Shown here: positions 4,850 through 13,384 of the stretch, in pieces | Layout of the letters: each line of letters starts with the position of its first letter | How positions within the stretch are numbered: position 1 is the first letter of the stretch | NCBI GenBank assembly: GCA_017849435.1 | Contig: JAFIGY010000014.1 | Location: forward strand, 1 to 64,000 | DNA length: 64,000 bases | Direction of reading: 5' to 3' | Source: Chitinophaga niabensis | GTDB taxonomy: Bacteria > Bacteroidota > Bacteroidia > Chitinophagales > Chitinophagaceae | The notes under the pieces: generated by a model | Seen by the model: only the letters and a program-made list of their open reading frames with translations | Told to the model about the DNA's origin: nothing | Databases searched by the model: none | Program-made: the position numbers and the translations under genes

Positions 4850-4891
4850 AATGTAACTCCACCAGTCCGCTGAAAAGATAAAAGATTGCAG

Positions 4892-6157
4892 ATGAAACTG
4901 CTGAACAAAACGGTACAATATTATTTTTTGCTATCGGTGGTACTGCTGCTGGTAGCAGTTCCCGTTTTCTACGTAGTGCTAAAAAGGATTGTGATCGCGA
5001 ATGTGGATGCGCGGCTGATCGCCACCAAAACCCAGCTTATCCCGCGTTTACAGGTATTGGAAGTCCCCCCGCCCAAGGGCTCCCCTCTTTTCAATAACGA
5101 CATCAGCCTGGAAAGGGCCGTGCCTCATGGCGGAAGGGACTCACTGTATACATCGGATATGGTGGACAGTCTCTCGCGTCACCGCGGCACATATCGCCTG
5201 CTGACCTCACATATCGTGATTAACCAGGAAACCTATCGCCTCCAGATCAAATCTTCCCTCGCCAATCACGAAGCGCTCATTACCAGCATCATCATCCTGC
5301 AGGTATTGTTACTGATCTTCCTGCTGGCAGGATTGCTGCTGATCAATCGCAGCCTCGCCCGGAAAGTATGGAACCCGTTCTACAAAACGCTGCGTAAACT
5401 TCGTTCCTATAAAGTGGATGATACCGAGCCGCTGCAATTAGAAAGATCCGGGGTGAATGAGTTCGCAGAGCTGAACACTGCTGTGGAGCAACTGGCGGAT
5501 CGTAGCCGGAAAGCGTATGTAGCACAGAAAGAATTCGCGGAAAATGCCTCGCACGAAATGCGCACGCCGCTCGCCATCTTCCAGGGTAAACTCGAGCTGT
5601 TGATGCAAACTTCCCCGCTCACGGAAGAGCAGGCGGCCCTTATCACAGACCTCGCTGCAGCCAGCCAGCGGATGGCAAGACTGAACAAAGGTCTTATCCT
5701 CCTCACCCGCATCCAGAACGGACAGTTCCCGGAAACGGAACCGGTGTCACTGCAAAAAATGGCGATTCATTTACTGGAACAATATCAACCACAGATAGAA
5801 CAGAAAGAGATCGTACTGGAGCAGTATTGGGAACAGGATATTGTTATCAACAGCAACCCCACGCTGATTGAAGTGCTCCTCGGTAACCTGCTGGCCAACG
5901 CTATCCGACACAATCTCAAAGGTGGCAACATGATCGTTCGAATGACGGATCATACTTTTACCGTGCAGAACACGGGACAATTCTATGCGCTCAATCCGGA
6001 CCGGCTTTTCAGGCGTTTTTCCAAAAGCAGTGCGGACGCGGAAAGTATGGGACTGGGACTGGAGATTGTGAAGAAGATCTGCGACCTGTACGGGTTTGAA
6101 GTGTCCTATTCCTATGATCATCCGCTGCACACCTTCCGCATCCTAATAAAAAGTTAA
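4892..6157 (+). CDS. two-component sensor histidine kinase
   Basis: 421-aa membrane kinase. There is a transmembrane helix at about 10-32, a periplasmic sensor region of roughly 95 residues, a second helix at about 130-152, a short linker, HisKA with the phosphoacceptor His in ENASHEMRTPLA, and HATPase with the N box LLGNLLANAIRHN and the G box MGLGLEIVKKIC. The ATG at 4892 is chosen over a TTG two codons upstream. It forms a pair with the OmpR-type regulator before it. The downstream gene encodes an envelope protease, so an envelope-stress role is a reasonable inference. Confidence 0.92.
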   Translation: MKLLNKTVQYYFLLSVVLLLVAVPVFYVVLKRIVIANVDARLIATKTQLIPRLQVLEVPPPKGSPLFNNDISLERAVPHGGRDSLYTSDMVDSLSRHRGTYRLLTSHIVINQETYRLQIKSSLANHEALITSIIILQVLLLIFLLAGLLLINRSLARKVWNPFYKTLRKLRSYKVDDTEPLQLERSGVNEFAELNTAVEQLADRSRKAYVAQKEFAENASHEMRTPLAIFQGKLELLMQTSPLTEEQAALITDLAAASQRMARLNKGLILLTRIQNGQFPETEPVSLQKMAIHLLEQYQPQIEQKEIVLEQYWEQDIVINSNPTLIEVLLGNLLANAIRHNLKGGNMIVRMTDHTFTVQNTGQFYALNPDRLFRRFSKSSADAESMGLGLEIVKKICDLYGFEVSYSYDHPLHTFRILIKS

Positions 6158-6179
6158 AACCTCCGCTCACATCCGCATT

Positions 6180-6200
6180 ATTCAGAATGTATTCAGAATG
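6180..6200 (+). promoter_or_regulatory. 11-bp-period direct repeat, candidate OmpR-type binding site
   Basis: ATTCAGAATG-T-ATTCAGAATG: two identical 10-mers spaced by one base, giving an 11-bp pitch, one helical turn. OmpR/PhoB regulators bind head-to-tail half sites with this pitch. It lies 23 nt after the kinase stop codon and 35 nt before the protease start. Confidence 0.5.
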
Positions 6201-6234
6201 CCGGCCCAATTTTAGGTCATCAAAACTGGATACT

Positions 6235-7731
6235 ATGAACAAAAAATTCACAATCGCTGCCATTGCATTATTGGCAGTAGGCGTTGCCGGAGGATATGCT
6301 ATCAGCGGAAAGATCGGTAAGCCCTACAACAGTATCCTGCAGGATAACGTCAAATCCCTCGTTCAAACTTCTTACACCGGCACCCCTTCCGGTCAGCCGG
6401 TTGATTTTGAAAAAGCAGCGGGTACGGCTGTTCCTTCTGTAGTACATATCAAAACTGTTGTAAAATTCAAACAAACGAATGCCGGTCGTGGTGGAGACAA
6501 CCCTTTCGGCATGGATGACGACATCTTCCAGCGCTTCTTCGGTGGCGGTGGCGGGCGTCAGCTCCAGCGTCCGGATCAGAAAGCTTCCGGCTCCGGCGTG
6601 ATCATCAGTGAAGATGGTTACATCGTTACCAATAATCACGTAGTGGATGGCGCCAACGAACTGACCGTAACGCTCAGCGACCGTAAGAATTATAAGGCCA
6701 AAGTGATCGGAACGGATCCAAACACAGACCTGGCGCTTATCAAGATCGATGCGAAGAACCTGCCGGTTATGCCGCTGGGTAATTCAGACGATGTAAGGCT
6801 GGGACAATGGGTGCTCGCTATCGGTTATCCGCTGGACCTTGACGTAACGGTTACGCAAGGGATCATCAGCGCCAAATCACGGAACATAGGTATCAACCGT
6901 CAGGCCGCCGCTCCCGTGGAATCATTCCTGCAGACGGACGCAGCCGTGAATCCCGGTAGCAGTGGCGGTGCATTAGTGAACACCAATGGAGAACTGATCG
7001 GTATCAATGCCGCTATCGCTTCTCCCACCGGCGCTTTTGCAGGGTATGCCTATTCCATCCCTTCCAACCTCATGAAAAAAGTGATCGGCGATATTATGAA
7101 ATTCGGCACTGTGCAACGCGGATACCTTGGTATCAGCATGGCGCCCGAGAATCTGGATGATGCTGCGAAGAAAGAACTGGGCATCAATAACGATAGCAGA
7201 GGCGCATGGGTGGCAGACGTTGATCCTAACGGAGCCGCTGCGGAAGCGGGTATCCGGAAAGGAGATGCCATCACGAAGATCAACGACATGACCGTGAATT
7301 CAGGAGCGCAGCTTTCTGAACAGATCGCGCGGCAAAAGCCCGGCGACAAAGTAAGCCTCACCGTATTGAGCAATGGAAAGGAAAGCGTGGTGAATGTTAC
7401 ATTGAAAGGCAAGATGGGCAGAATGGCCAGCCAGCAGGCAGCGGCAGTAGAATCCCTGGGCGCTGACCTCTCCGCGCTCTCCCGGGAAGATGCAGCCAAA
7501 CTGGGCCTCTCCGGCGGTGTGCAGGTAACGAACATTCGCGATGGTGTGCTCAGCGATCAGACCAATATGAAGCCGGGTTTCGTGATCACGAAGATCGGCG
7601 GGATACCGGTAAAGAACCTCGATGAGCTGAAAGACGCACTGAACAAGCAAAGCGGGAATTTCCAGATAGAAGGGACTTACCCCGGCAGCAGGAATATTTA
7701 TTACTACGGCATTAACGACTTCAACAACTAA
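6235..7731 (+). CDS. DegP/HtrA-type periplasmic serine protease
   Basis: 498 aa with an N-terminal signal/anchor helix (about 5-25), a trypsin-like protease domain and two PDZ domains (about 300-390 and 405-495). The catalytic triad is visible: His135 in TNNHVVDGA, Asp165 in NTDLALIKI and Ser243 in NPGSSGGAL. Such proteins degrade or refold misfolded envelope proteins. The ATG at 6235 is preferred because the longer in-frame start would put 16 non-hydrophobic residues before the signal helix and would overlap the direct repeat at 6180-6200. It is followed by a strong terminator shared with the convergent gene. Confidence 0.94.
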   Translation: MNKKFTIAAIALLAVGVAGGYAISGKIGKPYNSILQDNVKSLVQTSYTGTPSGQPVDFEKAAGTAVPSVVHIKTVVKFKQTNAGRGGDNPFGMDDDIFQRFFGGGGGRQLQRPDQKASGSGVIISEDGYIVTNNHVVDGANELTVTLSDRKNYKAKVIGTDPNTDLALIKIDAKNLPVMPLGNSDDVRLGQWVLAIGYPLDLDVTVTQGIISAKSRNIGINRQAAAPVESFLQTDAAVNPGSSGGALVNTNGELIGINAAIASPTGAFAGYAYSIPSNLMKKVIGDIMKFGTVQRGYLGISMAPENLDDAAKKELGINNDSRGAWVADVDPNGAAAEAGIRKGDAITKINDMTVNSGAQLSEQIARQKPGDKVSLTVLSNGKESVVNVTLKGKMGRMASQQAAAVESLGADLSALSREDAAKLGLSGGVQVTNIRDGVLSDQTNMKPGFVITKIGGIPVKNLDELKDALNKQSGNFQIEGTYPGSRNIYYYGINDFNN

Positions 7732-7749: not shown

Positions 7750-7786
7750 AAAGGCTTCTTCATTTCGGTGAAGGAGCCTTTTTTAT
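7750..7786. terminator. bidirectional intrinsic terminator
   Basis: AAGGCT-(T)-CTTCA ... TGAAG-GAGCCTT hairpin (7751-7780) followed by a T-run on the plus strand. It separates the convergent protease and receiver genes. Confidence 0.8.
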
Positions 7787-8199
7787 TGGTCCCGGAAGAT
7801 GCCTTCGATCACTTCCTTGAGCTCCCTGGGCTGGAGGGGTTTCTTTAAAAGGCGTATCACCAGCGGGTTAGCGTTCGTGCGGGAGATATCGCCGAAATCC
7901 AGGGACGAGGAGACCATAATGATGTAACACTGGTTCTTGATCTTCTGGGGGTAGGAATCAAAAGAACGGAGGAATTCGAAACCGTCCATTTCCGGCATCT
8001 GGATGTCCAGCAAAATAACGGTAGGAGGGATGTGGGGAAGGGTGATGTTACTGGAAAGGAATTCCAGGGCCTTGTTGGCATTGCTGAAGGCCAGGATGGT
8101 CCTGCTGATCTGCTGGATGGATATTAAACGTTCATGCAGTAACAGGTCGATGTCATTGTCATCTATCAATATGACGCGGAGGTCAGGAATCGAATTCAT
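7783..8199 (-). CDS. single-domain response regulator (receiver)
   Basis: 138-aa stand-alone receiver: acidic pair in LIDDND (Asp13/14), phosphoacceptor Asp65 in ILLDIQMPEMDG, Lys in LLKKPLQP near the C-terminus, and no output domain. The ATG at 8199 is used. A TTG at 8223 would extend it into the end of the previous gene. It overlaps the 3' end of the upstream kinase by 17 nt, so the two are translationally coupled. It is the last gene of the five-gene minus-strand unit and probably acts as the phosphate acceptor or relay for the two kinases encoded before it. Confidence 0.9.
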   Translation of the reverse strand: MNSIPDLRVILIDDNDIDLLLHERLISIQQISRTILAFSNANKALEFLSSNITLPHIPPTVILLDIQMPEMDGFEFLRSFDSYPQKIKNQCYIIMVSSSLDFGDISRTNANPLVIRLLKKPLQPRELKEVIEGIFRDQ

Positions 8200-9280
8200 T
8201 TCTGTTGGGGATAGTAATTTCAAACTGGGTGCCCTCTCCGTAACGGGAATCTACGCCAATCGTGCCGCCTATTTTGTTCAATGCTTCTTTTACGATATAC
8301 AGACCAATGCCGCTGCCGGGTTTGTTGTTATTCTTGGAACGGAAGAACATCTTGAAGATATTGCTGAGATGCTCGCTCAGAATACCGATACCGTTATCTT
8401 CTATCCTAAGGGTAGCCTTATGCGGCTCTACTTTCACGAACAGGTTCACCTGCGGGGAGGTCTCATCCGGTTTCTGGTATTTCACGGCATTCGATATCAG
8501 GTTGTTGACGATAACACTGATCCGGAAAAAATCGCCCTTGAAGGGTACCGGCTGGTCAATTTTTACGTTGAAATTGATGGTGGTGTTCTGATGTTTGAAC
8601 GTATCGATACAATCATCGATCAATGCCGCAAAATCGATTTTCTCATATTCCAGATCAAGACGGGAATTGCGGTAATATTCGATGATCTTCTGGATAAAGC
8701 TGTCCAGCCGTGTAATGCAAACCTCGATCATGCCCATATATCCCTGCGGGTCCGCCATGCTGCCATCCAGCCGGCTCAAATTGATGATCCCCTGTACGCT
8801 CATCAGTGGTGCGCGAAGGTCGTGGGACGTGGAATAGATGAAGCGGTTCAGTTCATCGTTCGTTTTTTCCAGTTCCTGTACTTTCTCTTTGAGCTGTTTG
8901 CGGGCGGAGTAGATCTCGTAAGCATTGTTGATGGTGCGGAAGAGCTCATGTTCGTCCCATGGTTTCTTGATATAAGAGTAGATATGTCCCTTGTTGATGG
9001 CGTCTATGATATCTTCCACATCCGTATAACCGGTGAGCAGTATGCGGACGGGGTCCGGCAGCACTTCTTTTACTTCATGAAAGAATTCCACACCGGTGGT
9101 GACGGGCATTTTCTGATCCGCGATGATGATGTGCACCTCTATGCCTTTGAGCACCTGCATGCCTTCCGCGGCGGAATTGGCGGTGTAGATCTCATAACTC
9201 CGGCGGAAGTTGGCGCGGAACGCGTTGAGGTTATGTACTTCATCATCGATGTACAGGATTCTGATACGGTTATTTTTCAT
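8183..9280 (-). CDS. receiver-histidine kinase hybrid (cytoplasmic)
   Basis: 365 aa with no membrane helix. An N-terminal receiver (1-122) has Asp55 in IIIADQKMP and the GYTD/KKPWD motifs typical of RpfG-like receivers, then comes a coiled-coil linker (about 125-148), HisKA with His153 in STSHDLRAP, and HATPase with NNLISNAVKY and GSGIGLYIVKEA. This REC-first order suggests that it receives phosphate from an upstream kinase and then signals onward. It begins 15 nt after the 7TM sensor kinase stop and overlaps the lone receiver gene. Confidence 0.92.
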   Translation of the reverse strand: MKNNRIRILYIDDEVHNLNAFRANFRRSYEIYTANSAAEGMQVLKGIEVHIIIADQKMPVTTGVEFFHEVKEVLPDPVRILLTGYTDVEDIIDAINKGHIYSYIKKPWDEHELFRTINNAYEIYSARKQLKEKVQELEKTNDELNRFIYSTSHDLRAPLMSVQGIINLSRLDGSMADPQGYMGMIEVCITRLDSFIQKIIEYYRNSRLDLEYEKIDFAALIDDCIDTFKHQNTTINFNVKIDQPVPFKGDFFRISVIVNNLISNAVKYQKPDETSPQVNLFVKVEPHKATLRIEDNGIGILSEHLSNIFKMFFRSKNNNKPGSGIGLYIVKEALNKIGGTIGVDSRYGEGTQFEITIPNRNEFDS

Positions 9281-9295
9281 GTAGTCTTAATTAAA

Positions 9296-11446
9296 TTAGG
9301 AATGCCCCGGAACACTCAGCGGTAAATATATAATAAATTCAGCTCCTTTGCCCGGTGCGGATTCCACTACTATTTTACCGTGATGTTTCTCGATAATACT
9401 GAAAACGATAGAAAGCCCCAGACCGGTACCTTCTCCCACATCTTTGGTGGTGAAGAACGGCTCGAAGATCTTCTCTTTCACTTTATCCGTCATACCTATA
9501 CCCGAGTCCTTAATGCTAATGCTCACCTGCTGGCCCGGCAGCTGGCGGGTGGTAATGGTAATGGATTCATTGCCCTGCTCCGGTTTCATTTTAATGGCAT
9601 TCAGCGCATTGTTGAGGATGTTGAGGAAAACCTGGTTCAGTTTGCCGGCATAGCATTCAATTTTGGGGAGATCTCCATAGTCGTAAATGACCTGCACATT
9701 TTTGGGGATGTTATTGCGTAACAGGACCATCGTAGAGTTGAGGCCCTCGTGGATGTCTATGGATTTAAGATCGCTTTCGTCAAGGCGGCTGAAGGTGCGG
9801 AGACCTTTTACGATCTCTGCGGTACGGTTGGCGCCGTCTTCAATGCCTTTGATCAGCGTGTCGATCTCGGTGTGCACGTAATCGATATCGATCTGTTTTT
9901 TATACTGCTCGATCTCTGCCAGCTGTTCCTGGATGTTACCATTGGCGCCGATGGATTCATACCGGCGCAACAGACTCTTGATATCTTCGAAGTCCAGCTT
10001 CAGCGGCTTGATATTGGAAGTAACGAAGTTGATAGGATTGTTGATCTCATGCGCGATACCGGCGGTCAGCTGACCGAGGGACGCCATCTTCTCGGCTTCC
10101 ACCAGTTGTGTTTGTGCTTCTTTCAGGTTGGTAAGCGCTTTATTCAGCTCTTTGTTACTGCTTTGCAAAGCATCTGTTCTTTCCAGTACCTTGGCCTCGA
10201 GGATAGCGTTCTGCTCCCGTACCAGTTGTTCGTTCTCCTGTGAGATGCGGAGCGCGAGGGCCTGGGATTCCTCCTTTTCCTGCCGGTAGATATTGATCTT
10301 GTTGGCGAGCGCGAAGGACAGCAACGTTACTTCCGCCGCAGACCCGATCTGCAGGGCGTAGTAGGTAAAGTCGTTATACGGCAGCACATTGAAATTCCTC
10401 ATCACAAAAATACATACGCTCGTCAGGAATATCCCCCACGCGATGAGGAAATACCTCGCGGGAACAAACCCTTTGGCCGCCACTTTGTATCCTACGAAGA
10501 TGGCCAGCATGGAGGCACTCATGGCTGTCATCTGCGTCATCATGTTCCCGATGAAGAAGTTGCCGATGAGGGTAGGAATGAAACAAAGTATATACGCGAC
10601 CGTTACACCGCTGAGGATGTTGTGCCCCAGCCGGTATTTCTCCCGTGTATGCAGGAAGGATTGTATGAAAAGCGCGGCTGTGATCCCGTTGAAGATAGGG
10701 ATCAGCAGTGTGTCGTGCGTGGCCAGCCAGACGCTGTTGGGCCAGAGGAAGCGGAAAGTATATCCCTGCTGGGAGGCCTGCGTAAGCCCCACGCAGATGA
10801 TATAGCTTACGTATATCAGATAGCTGGTATCGCGAACGGAGATGAAGATAAAGAGGTTGTACAGGGCCATTACGAGAATGATGCCGATATACAATCCGAA
10901 AATGAAATTACGTTCCGTGTTCTTCTTGCTCACGGCGGCTTCGGAGCCGAGATATACGGGCAGTTGCAGCTGTTCCCCGGCTTTCACCTTGAAATAGAAC
11001 TGCCGGGTTTCGCCCTGGGGGATTTCCAGCGGAAAGATGTAGTTCTGGTGATCATACGGCCGCAACCGGTAAGGCTGGAACTCCCCGAGCCGGGTCTCCT
11101 TCATGCTGCCGTCCGGCTGTAATGCATACAGGGTGATGTCGTCTATGATCGGGTATTCCACTTCCAGCAGCAAGGGGCGCACGGTAGTGTTATTTGTGAT
11201 GGAAAAGCGGGCCCATACGGTGAAGGGGGTGATCTGCAGGTTGGGTACATCCTGTTCGGATGCCACAAAATGCTGGTCCTTCATATCCGCAACCGTCAGC
11301 TTGCCCGTTTTGTCGATGAATAGTTCAAGATGCCGGCCGATTTGCATGAGTTTGGAACTATCGGAGAATGCAGCGGGGTCCGAGGCGAAGGAGGCGCTGC
11401 GCCAGAGTAATCCAAAAATGAATAGGACAAAAAGACGTATCGGCAT
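9296..11446 (-). CDS. 7TM-DISM sensor histidine kinase
   Basis: 716 aa: a signal peptide (1-21), an extracytoplasmic 7TMR-DISMED2 beta domain (about 30-165), a seven-helix 7TMR-DISM membrane domain (about 180-385), a long coiled coil (about 390-455), HisKA with His466 in [13 protein letters not shown], and HATPase with [12 protein letters not shown] and [12 protein letters not shown]. 7TM-DISM receptors bind small ligands, carbohydrate-like or otherwise, outside the cell. The gene sits between biosynthetic-looking genes (ThiF, GNAT) and the downstream receiver proteins. The spacing of 57 nt to the GNAT gene and 15 nt to the hybrid kinase gene supports one transcript. Confidence 0.92.
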
Positions 11447-11503
11447 CTGAAAATCGAAATTGTTCGTGAAGTTACGGCTGTTGTTTCAGCAAACATAACT
11501 GTT

Positions 11504-12202
11504 TTATTCCACCCATTGGGGAAGTCCAAGCTGATAATTTACCTCAAAGGACCCCTTGGGCCCGGTCTCCAGTCTTACCTGGTTCGGGTTCCGCCGCAGT
11601 TCACGGATGAGGTCCCGCTCCGAGGGGTCCGCACTGGCCACTTCATGTATATCTTTGATGATCATGGCGGTAGCGATGAGATCGTCTTTAGGATAATAGA
11701 AGGTCCCCTGATTCCCCAGCGAGGTATCGATTACAGCGCCAACCCTTTTGGCGCCACGGGTGGTGATAGGGGCACAAAGCACGTGTACATTGTCAACCGG
11801 CAATTGCGTCATCAGCGCCACGCACACCCTGCTGAGGATAAGGCTGCCGATGCCCATCCCCGCTACTTCCTTGGAATTCCACAATCCACAGATCTCCGCA
11901 CTCCCGATCTTCACATCGGTATATATTTTCGGATCGTATTTGCCAATGGCCAGCTCTATCGGTAACGGCAGTACGCCGTCTGCCATTTGTATCCTCGAGC
12001 CGCCATACGTCTTGGTACCGGTCTCGTCCTCTACGATCACCACAACGGTATTCCTATGGTGAACCCAGTCCTGGTTGCCGGAAGTGATTTTATTGATCCC
12101 GAAATAGATCTGCAACAGCTTGCTGTGACCTTCATAGAAGCGCATGCAAGCTTCCGGATCATCCGGCGCAAAAAAAGCCCTTACATTTATCGATGCACTC
12201 AT
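11504..12202 (-). CDS. GNAT-like acyltransferase, function unknown
   Basis: 232 aa, cytoplasmic. The region SAEICGLWNSKEVAGMGIG (about 101-119) followed by SLILSRVCVAL resembles the strand-4/helix-3 acyl-CoA pyrophosphate loop (Q/RxxGxG/A) of GNAT and N-acyl-amino-acid-synthase folds. The upstream segment VVVIVEDETGTKTYGGSRI looks like the strand pair preceding it. The C-terminal part after about 150 is not a recognised domain. It begins 27 nt after the ThiF-like gene and precedes the 7TM receptor gene. The family assignment rests on one motif and fold-like spacing, so it could also be an unrelated conserved protein. Confidence 0.6.
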   Translation of the reverse strand: MSASINVRAFFAPDDPEACMRFYEGHSKLLQIYFGINKITSGNQDWVHHRNTVVVIVEDETGTKTYGGSRIQMADGVLPLPIELAIGKYDPKIYTDVKIGSAEICGLWNSKEVAGMGIGSLILSRVCVALMTQLPVDNVHVLCAPITTRGAKRVGAVIDTSLGNQGTFYYPKDDLIATAMIIKDIHEVASADPSERDLIRELRRNPNQVRLETGPKGSFEVNYQLGLPQWVE

Positions 12203-12229
12203 TGGTTGCTCTTTTTATTGATGGGGCAT

Positions 12230-13384
12230 TTATTGAATGAGTTGATCAAAATCTACATAGTAACGGCCCGATGCGCTCAGCTGATCGAGCAGGATCCGCC
12301 TGCAGGTATCTGCCACCAGCGCTCCGCCCAGCATCACGGAAGACGCCAGCTGCGGCCAGGTGGAGATGGATTTACCAATCTCTCCCAGCGAATATTTCAT
12401 CCTGGGACTCATATCTTTCATCCCGGCCATAGGCCCGAGGATGGGGATCTTCTCTTCGTTGGACAGGTGCTTCAGGGCCTTGATGTCTTTTATCTCCGGA
12501 ATAAGGCCATGCAGCAGCGGGTAATCCGGTACCAGGTCAAAGCGTTCAATATCCAGCATACCCCTGTCGTTCGTATCCATTACAACAGGTATTTGCAGCG
12601 CCCTGGCTTTCTGACGGCTGAGTATCTTCACATCCACGCCGTCACACTCTTCCACCAGCACATCCAGCTTGCCGCCTTCCATGAAGAAGCGGTCCAGGTT
12701 CTCTTCCGTTGCCCCGTCTTCAAAGCATTTTATCTTTATATACGGATCCAGCTCCGCGATCTCCCGTGCAGCAACGATCACCTTGGGAACGCCCAGGTTA
12801 TAAAGACCGGTCCGCAGCCGGTTGAGATTAGTCAGCTCCACGGTATCGAAATCCGCCAGCCGCAACTCACCGCCAATACGCTCCATTGCCAGGGTCAGTG
12901 CAATCGTTTGCCCGACGGACAACCCGATCACCCCGATCCTTTTTTGCTGTAACAACTCCCGCTCTTTAACCGTGATCTTGTGAAGGTTGCGCGAAGTGCG
13001 CAAGGCAACGAACTCCTGCTCATCCAGCAGATGTACCAGCTTTTCCGACCAGGGGTAATATACCCACACACCGTACGCTTCCAGGGATGTTTCACCAAGG
13101 TGTTCCGCAATGGCAGAACTGATCTCCGGTTCACTCAGCCTTCGGTCCGGATGCAGACCCTTTACCAACTCTTTCAATTGACATTCCAGTTCATCATACA
13201 CACTGATCTCCGGATGTTCCTCCAATAATTGCAGCAGCGCTTCCTTGTTTTCCCTGAAACGATAAAAAACCGGGGAATAGGTCATGGATCCTTGCTTCGT
13301 CTGCCGTATGCGTTCCTGAATATTCATGCTGCCTCTATGCTTCATTTTACCGGGACTTTCAACATCCCCGCCGGAAGAGCGCAT
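12230..13384 (-). CDS. ThiF/E1-like adenylyltransferase
   Basis: 384 aa. An N-terminal helical region (about 30-145) precedes a Rossmann-type ThiF domain: nucleotide loop IGVIGLSVGQT (GLSVG at 154-158 instead of the usual GxGGxG), then LADFDTVELTNLNR with Asp178, Asp180, Asn186 and Arg189, the ATP/Mg-contacting residues of E1, MoeB and ThiF. No CxxC zinc pairs are present, unlike MoeB/ThiF. The GLSVG variant recalls the ThiF half of Rv1355c-like fusions (from memory), but no nitroreductase part follows here. No ubiquitin-like, ThiS or MoaD gene is nearby. It is the first gene of the five-gene unit. The start is uncertain: ATG also occurs at 13327. Confidence 0.82.
   Translation of the reverse strand: MRSSGGDVESPGKMKHRGSMNIQERIRQTKQGSMTYSPVFYRFRENKEALLQLLEEHPEISVYDELECQLKELVKGLHPDRRLSEPEISSAIAEHLGETSLEAYGVWVYYPWSEKLVHLLDEQEFVALRTSRNLHKITVKERELLQQKRIGVIGLSVGQTIALTLAMERIGGELRLADFDTVELTNLNRLRTGLYNLGVPKVIVAAREIAELDPYIKIKCFEDGATEENLDRFFMEGGKLDVLVEECDGVDVKILSRQKARALQIPVVMDTNDRGMLDIERFDLVPDYPLLHGLIPEIKDIKALKHLSNEEKIPILGPMAGMKDMSPRMKYSLGEIGKSISTWPQLASSVMLGGALVADTCRRILLDQLSASGRYYVDFDQLIQ

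Follow-up and report, generated by a model that had tools for sequence, protein, structure and literature searches.

A Chitinophaga operon predicted to make and sense an N-acyl amino acid signal

The window, which is the whole analysed stretch of 64,000 nucleotides from the soil bacterium Chitinophaga niabensis (contig JAFIGY010000014.1), carries five consecutive minus-strand genes encoding a ThiF-like adenylating enzyme, an acyltransferase, a 7TM-DISM receptor histidine kinase, a hybrid kinase and a lone receiver. We consider it somewhat probable that this operon is responsible both for producing and for detecting a small signal, an N-acyl amino acid closed as an oxazolone. Linkage between the synthase and the receptor was observed in 176 of 178 loci, and sequence comparison supports the receptor being cognate. 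A sequence-only reading of this stretch had proposed that a small acylated molecule is made and sensed; the proposal was partly supported. The predicted acyltransferase fold, the homology with TrzS and the linkage of the receptor agree with it, and the product and its sensing are predictions. The genes are the following.

12230..13384, minus strand: predicted ThiF/E1-like adenylating cyclase, corresponding to the cyclase half of the TrzS/Rv1355c family without the flavin desaturase half (Pfam ThiF, NF005901, Asp248; start possibly 13327)
11504..12202, minus strand: FeeM/LuxI-like N-acyltransferase (NAT) of 232 aa, a predicted N-acyl amino acid synthase (AlphaFold2 model, Foldseek, homology with TrzA-locus proteins)
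9296..11446, minus strand: 7TM-DISM receptor histidine kinase with a leader, a RetS-like periplasmic DISMED2 domain, seven transmembrane helices, HisKA (AHEINNP) and HATPase (Pfam, motifs)
8183..9280, minus strand: receiver-first hybrid histidine kinase REC-HisKA-HATPase of 365 aa (Pfam; SHDLRAPL H-box, N and G boxes)
7783..8199, minus strand: lone receiver (LLDIQMPEMDG) with no output domain (Pfam Response_reg 45.5 bits, sequence; extended to 8223 by the open reading frame caller)

A receptor kinase lies downstream of NAT on the same strand, with its centre within 5 kb, in the 176 loci mentioned above, and in the other two (L147 and L215) the contigs end 97 and 1 bases past the acyltransferase. 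The 178 loci, which consist of 136 from the family and class searches, a further 12 and 30 from tblastn, are not independent, and a species may be represented more than once; the second fragments of G420 and G701 and both contig-end fragments of G490 were left out. All five genes occurred together in each of the 30 tblastn loci, which were chosen by acyltransferase similarity in named genomes and comprise 26 from Chitinophaga, 3 from Pedobacter and one from a metagenome-assembled genome labelled Flavihumibacter; the frames are broken in L030. Among 395 genomes of the phylum, 13 have a match to the acyltransferase profile; 11 of these 13, and no others, match the ThiF profile at E up to 1e-40, and the remaining two have an ICMT-family gene between the acyltransferase and the receptor. 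A broader profile detected the acyltransferase in 77 of the 244 genomes searched in the family (38 of 101 sampled genera) and in 75 of the 395 searched in the class (43 of 197). The neighbourhood search across Bacteroidota that the sequence-only reading had called for found the acyltransferase beside a receptor kinase in the 176 loci. The acyltransferase on the contig labelled Flavihumibacter (L022) resembles that of the window (69%) as much as that of Chitinophaga filiformis (L023) does, which may point to an error in labelling or binning.

Relatives of the operon differ in their tailoring enzyme. Of the 178 loci, 75 were assigned to the ThiF-desaturase type, in which the fusion occupies the operon (4 of these show the desaturase part only), 65 to ThiF alone, 13 to a class I methyltransferase, 9 to ICMT, 2 to an FAD-binding oxidase and 1 to an O-methyltransferase; 10 have none, and 3 are at a contig edge. 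The labels were given by models built in this analysis and by Pfam scans of representatives, where "none" means none of these enzymes within 3-3.5 kb; the models of the class I methyltransferase, the FAD oxidase and the O-methyltransferase were applied to all 178 loci, and L091 was typed as methyltransferase. When ThiF and ThiF-desaturase are lumped, the tailoring type changes at least 18 times on the tree of kinase and hybrid-kinase domains of 120 loci. In L119, which is of the type "none", 690 bases without a recognised gene separate the acyltransferase from the receptor; its relatives L053 and L114 (genus code g7) have ICMT, and a decayed gene is possible.

The sensor domains of the receptors differ more between loci with unlike tailoring enzymes than would be predicted from the relay domains. 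In this co-variation analysis, the 179 sequences (178 loci and the window) were reduced to 154 with all four parts and to 120 after removal of near copies, and the sensor-domain distance was regressed on the kinase-domain distance, the hybrid-kinase distance and an indicator of different tailoring, with the lumped types. For the phylogenetic null, labels were evolved along the relay tree with their rate of change matched (mean near 0.001-0.002, standard deviation 0.034-0.037). The coefficient of different tailoring reached 0.143 for the sensor distance (p 0.001-0.002), and the same regression on the acyltransferase distance gave −0.046 (p 0.86 and 0.88). The nearest sequence was of the same lumped type for 107 of the 120 sensor domains, 99 hybrid kinases, 94 kinase domains and 91 acyltransferases; under plain permutation, the kinase domain also showed a small effect (0.0165, p 0.05). 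Within the ThiF group, gene order had no effect on the sensor distance (0.030, p 0.24), and therefore rearrangement alone does not account for the sensor effect. At the 24 loci where the tailoring gene lies between the acyltransferase and the receptor, the effect was 0.210 for the sensor (p 0.005) and 0.055 for the acyltransferase (p 0.05); because of the latter, the tailoring gene may have been exchanged there along with adjacent genes. Whether a locus of the ThiF group has the desaturase made only a slight difference, alike for the sensor (0.035, p 0.015) and the acyltransferase (0.028, p 0.04). The co-variation of sensor and tailoring enzyme is consistent with each receptor being tuned to what its own operon makes.

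The second protein of the operon, which had been read as acyltransferase-like, has no match in Pfam, NCBIfam or PADLOC and no sequence match in PDB, but its predicted structure has an acyltransferase fold. Its 24-member profile has no match in PDB either; NAT itself matched no Pfam or NCBIfam family at E up to 1, and no autoinducer synthase model matched any of the 24 members at E up to 10. The structure prediction of 11504-12202, which had been suggested earlier, was run with AlphaFold2 and gave a fold like those of FeeM and the N-acyl homoserine lactone (AHL) synthases, that is, the GNAT-related FeeM/LuxI fold as modelled (predicted local distance difference test, pLDDT, 87.7; predicted template modelling score, pTM, 0.86). 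In Foldseek, FeeM came first, followed by the coenzyme A (CoA)-dependent AHL synthases MesI, RpaI and BjaI; a second structure comparison also placed FeeM above the AHL synthases, with general acetyltransferases scoring nearly as high. NAT differs from FeeM/NasY in that the identity in the structural alignment is 10%, and ElaA and a Pseudomonas acyltransferase lie within 1 Z unit.

Proteins encoded beside Rv1355c-family genes in Rhodococcus and Nocardia, whose identity as TrzA rests on this location, scored 17.3, 14.8 and 10.6 bits and ranked 1-3 of 306 sequences, 300 of which were decoys scoring at most 2.1 bits. In hhalign, NAT aligned with these proteins over 219-227 columns with a probability of 56 and 91% in the two directions; a shallow profile had given 1.6%, and the deeper version used 177 sequences and decoys. 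From the modelled fold and this similarity, NAT is very probably an acyltransferase of the FeeM/LuxI type. In two relatives (L117:6980-8944 and L165:6983-8433), the operon has two tandem acyltransferase genes, an arrangement that could lead to a second acylation or a second product.

The first gene encodes an E1/ThiF-like enzyme without the zinc cysteines, as had been noted before: the protein matches Pfam ThiF with E 1.1e-17 (64.4 bits) and has no CxxC pair. Against NCBIfam NF005901, the Rv1355c family, it scores 464.6 bits (E 5.3e-139); the alignment covers profile positions 6-339 of 722, and nothing in the protein corresponds to the second half. The curated cut-off, which is 476 bits and refers to the fusion of ThiF and flavin desaturase, lies slightly above both the protein score and the 470.6 bits of a genome search reading through stops. 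Plasmid-borne proteins annotated as members of the Rv1355c family in Rhodococcus, Mycolicibacterium and Mycobacterium are 41-48% identical to it, and its best 13 plasmid matches are all actinobacterial (41-49%). The ATP-site residue Asp248 of the EECD motif is invariant in alignment A2 and is aligned in 7 of 7 proteins compared, and we infer that it is the equivalent of TrzS Asp217. No phage record in the searched collection carries this ThiF protein. Two other assignments were considered and rejected: E1-E2 anti-phage defence, for which the PADLOC similarity of ThiF domains was weak (best E 8.3e-7), and activation of the ubiquitin-like, MoeB or ThiS kind, whose profiles gave at most 61.6 bits against 464.6 and for which the CxxC pair is absent.

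The chemistry of TrzA/TrzS has been demonstrated in actinobacteria, where N-acyl tryptazolones are produced (PMC12856293). In TrzS, which is of the Rv1355c type, ATP-dependent cyclisation of N-acyl tryptophan comes first and desaturation by the flavin half follows; under O2 limitation, the cyclised, not yet oxidised compound accumulates (PMC12856293). The window ThiF protein is, judged by sequence similarity, close kin of the TrzS cyclase half, which closes N-acyl amino acids into oxazolones. It is likely to act as the cyclase of the acyltransferase's product, and NAT and ThiF together are probably an acyl-oxazolone synthase without the usual flavin desaturase.

The receptor kinase matches 7TMR-DISM_7TM (4.8e-52), DISMED2 (2.5e-33) and HATPase in Pfam, and with a HisKA of 25.0 bits, just below the cut-off of 26.9, it has the combined architecture of DISMED, 7TM and HisKA/HATPase. 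The fourth protein contains Response_reg, HisKA and HATPase and the fifth a lone Response_reg; the 7TM-DISM receptor kinase, the receiver-first hybrid kinase and the lone receiver of the earlier description were all confirmed in this way. No output domain was found by Pfam in the operon-encoded relay. The best match of the sensor domain is RetS, with carbohydrate modules among the weak matches, and the periplasmic DISMED2 and 7TM architecture is shared with RetS and other 7TMR-DISM kinases. We know of no link between RetS and a small-molecule synthase, and most 7TM-DISM receptors have, to our knowledge, no known ligand. Such receptors are few, which makes their linkage to NAT more notable: each of 20 sampled genomes has only 1-5 matches to 7TM-DISM, and that of the window has three.

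In the mechanism that we propose, NAT would join a fatty acyl group from acyl-CoA or acyl carrier protein to the amino group of an amino acid, as its fold and homology suggest, and the ThiF protein would adenylate the free carboxylate and close the oxazolone ring, as the TrzS cyclase does. A saturated oxazolone or a derivative of it would be expected as the product, since the operon has no flavin desaturase and a genome search found none of the TrzS type. Ring closure removes a charge, as the lactone does in AHLs, and therefore the molecule could exit the cell. It would then bind the periplasmic DISMED2 domain, the 7TM part or both, and phosphate may be relayed to the other two signalling proteins (hybrid kinase and lone receiver), both of which contain the corresponding motifs. 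Sensing of the product by the linked receptor is, on its own, fairly probable. In the relatives, other enzymes would replace the tailoring step and the sensor would differ accordingly, as expected if each receptor reads the product of its own operon.

Several observations weigh against this make-and-sense reading. The sensor effect comes mainly from the 62 rows of the window's family, with a coefficient of 0.166 (p 0.005 by plain permutation); for the remaining 58 rows, of which only 5 lack ThiF, the coefficient is 0.054 and not significant (p 0.21). NAT distances correlate most closely with those of the hybrid kinase (partial r 0.34) and less with those of the sensor (0.23) and the kinase domain (0.11), and synthase-receptor co-evolution in plain distances, having no sensor-specific link, was rejected. 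The NAT-linked receptors require 5 changes on a tree of 184 rows and 3 on one of 49 rows, with nine unlinked receptors included as comparison; a single clade was not rejected (approximately unbiased test, p 0.311). The flavin desaturase is absent from the operon, and a profile search found none of the TrzS type in the genome; of its three nitroreductase-family genes (open frames of 213-238 aa), one matches 62 positions of the TrzS profile with 20.5 bits. The sensor fold of RetS is like that of a carbohydrate module and unlike those of the acyl-lipid receptors known to us. Oxazolones are easily hydrolysed and do not survive acids or alcohols, and the actinobacterial tryptazolones were more abundant inside cells, with acyl-tryptophan located in the supernatant (PMC12856293).

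The resemblance of the sensor domain to RetS and the relay without an output domain also agree with another explanation, in which the product is an N-acyl oxazolone or a lipid akin to it, with a role in the envelope or as an antimicrobial, and the 7TM-DISM relay senses some other cue, such as a glycan or envelope stress, and switches production on. N-acyl tyrosine derivatives are antimicrobial according to PMC12856293, which also reports that several proteobacteria made oxazolones in response to subinhibitory antibiotics. However, a shared external cue offers no reason for the sensor to follow the tailoring enzyme. No further recurring gene was seen inside the operons inspected, where genes outside the profiles used were viewed by length only and a nearby exporter is possible. 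We regard this explanation as somewhat unlikely.

It is also conceivable that the ThiF protein does not cyclise: its activation of the carboxylate could instead prepare the N-acyl amino acid for amide or ester formation or hydrolysis, by which the signal would not be an oxazolone and the make-and-sense logic would be kept. The lack of a desaturase partner in the window genome is in line with this, as are the relatives in which methyltransferases, an oxidase or nothing replaces the step; for the stieleriacine, kyonggic acid and thalassotalic acid families, no oxazolone was observed despite their ThiF genes (PMC12479983). Against this stands the very close resemblance of the protein to TrzS, where the ring is closed before desaturation takes place; a non-cyclising ThiF protein is considered distinctly improbable. 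That the five genes are coincidental neighbours in one genus without a joint function, as close genes are common in bacteria, is hardly credible because the receptor adjoins NAT almost throughout and the acyltransferase spans many genera of the family and class.

Small-molecule synthase genes lie beside genes of multi-transmembrane sensor histidine kinases, followed by a phosphorelay, in LuxM-LuxN, CqsA-CqsS and LqsA-LqsS, and likewise in the window operon. The latter differs in its synthase family, in the DISM receptor with a periplasmic domain, in the two separate kinases and in the exchangeable tailoring enzyme. The sequence-only reading knew of no described system with this exact content. 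Searches of the open-licence literature listed no paper in which chemistry of the acyl-oxazolone type is paired with a receptor. A synthase beside a multi-transmembrane sensor kinase has precedents in Vibrio and Legionella systems; what the literature searched did not show are these components, the exchange of the tailoring enzyme and the occurrence in this phylum.

Compared with TrzA/TrzS, the window operon shares the ThiF-like cyclase and an adjacent homologous acyltransferase, and the fusion form occurs in its Bacteroidota relatives; it differs in lacking the flavin desaturase half, and TrzA/TrzS has genes related to cyclic di-GMP nearby and no 7TM receptor kinase listed, in PMC12856293 and in two Rhodococcus plasmid stretches with a GGDEF gene near the cyclase. 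TyzA/B/C and OxzA/B, which produce N-acyl tyrazolones, share the three-part logic of acyltransferase, ThiF cyclase and flavin desaturase; TyzB and OxzB belong to a ThiF subcluster other than that of TrzS (PMC12856293), and the words kinase and receptor are absent from the main texts of their papers.

Six plasmid stretches with the cyclase outside Bacteroidota have no histidine kinase listed in a gene table that is incomplete; as far as these stretches show, the cyclase chemistry seems to exist without the receptor elsewhere. In the plasmid of Streptomyces sp. NBC_01471 (L075:5932-7730), a ThiF gene 47% identical to that of the window is followed by an annotated GNAT gene; no histidine kinase is listed, and a "sensor domain-containing protein" lies about 5 kb from ThiF. 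In that of Streptomyces sp. NBC_01431 (L078:5128-8042), ThiF (49% over 322 residues) is directly followed by a gene of beta-ketoacyl-ACP synthase 3 (KAS III), which is a possible alternative partner for the cyclase.

For Bacteroidota, in which we know of no well-established acyl-type quorum system, belief and doubt are about evenly balanced as to a widespread modular quorum class, with a FeeM-like synthase, exchangeable caps (oxazolone closure, desaturation, methylation, oxidation) and a co-encoded 7TM-DISM receptor whose sensor changes with the chemistry. If the make-and-sense reading is true, natural acyl-oxazolones gain a signalling function and a receptor, and the operon products are candidate ligands for 7TM-DISM receptors. 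In many genera, enzymes of the kind that makes acyl-oxazolones elsewhere are encoded next to a receptor kinase, and the signalling hypothesis can be directly tested in culturable Chitinophaga.

The gaps of 27, 57 and 15 nt between the five minus-strand genes, as first reported, are borne out by the open reading frame coordinates, and the 17-nt overlap stands with the ATG start at 8199 of the last gene; with the longest frame (TTG at 8223), it is 41 nt. As for the two possible ThiF starts, several relatives align well only from about 13327, and close ones are similar upstream of it too.

A 14-pair stem-loop at 7750..7781 (terminator scan, plus-strand call, no strand assigned), between the operon end and a convergent serine-protease-like gene, is a possible shared terminator; the region has 5 terminator-like sites against 6.7 in shuffles, and this one is distinguished by its long stem only. 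From their translations, the genes at 4886-7731, oriented toward the operon end, encode a sensor histidine kinase-like protein and a DegP/HtrA-like serine protease. In relatives (L027-L029, L052-L056, L058-L061 and many of L086-L217), a lone receiver similar to the hybrid-kinase N-terminus lies beside the operon, usually divergently; in the window, a superoxide-dismutase-like gene, also read from its translation, adjoins the operon in place of this extra receiver gene.

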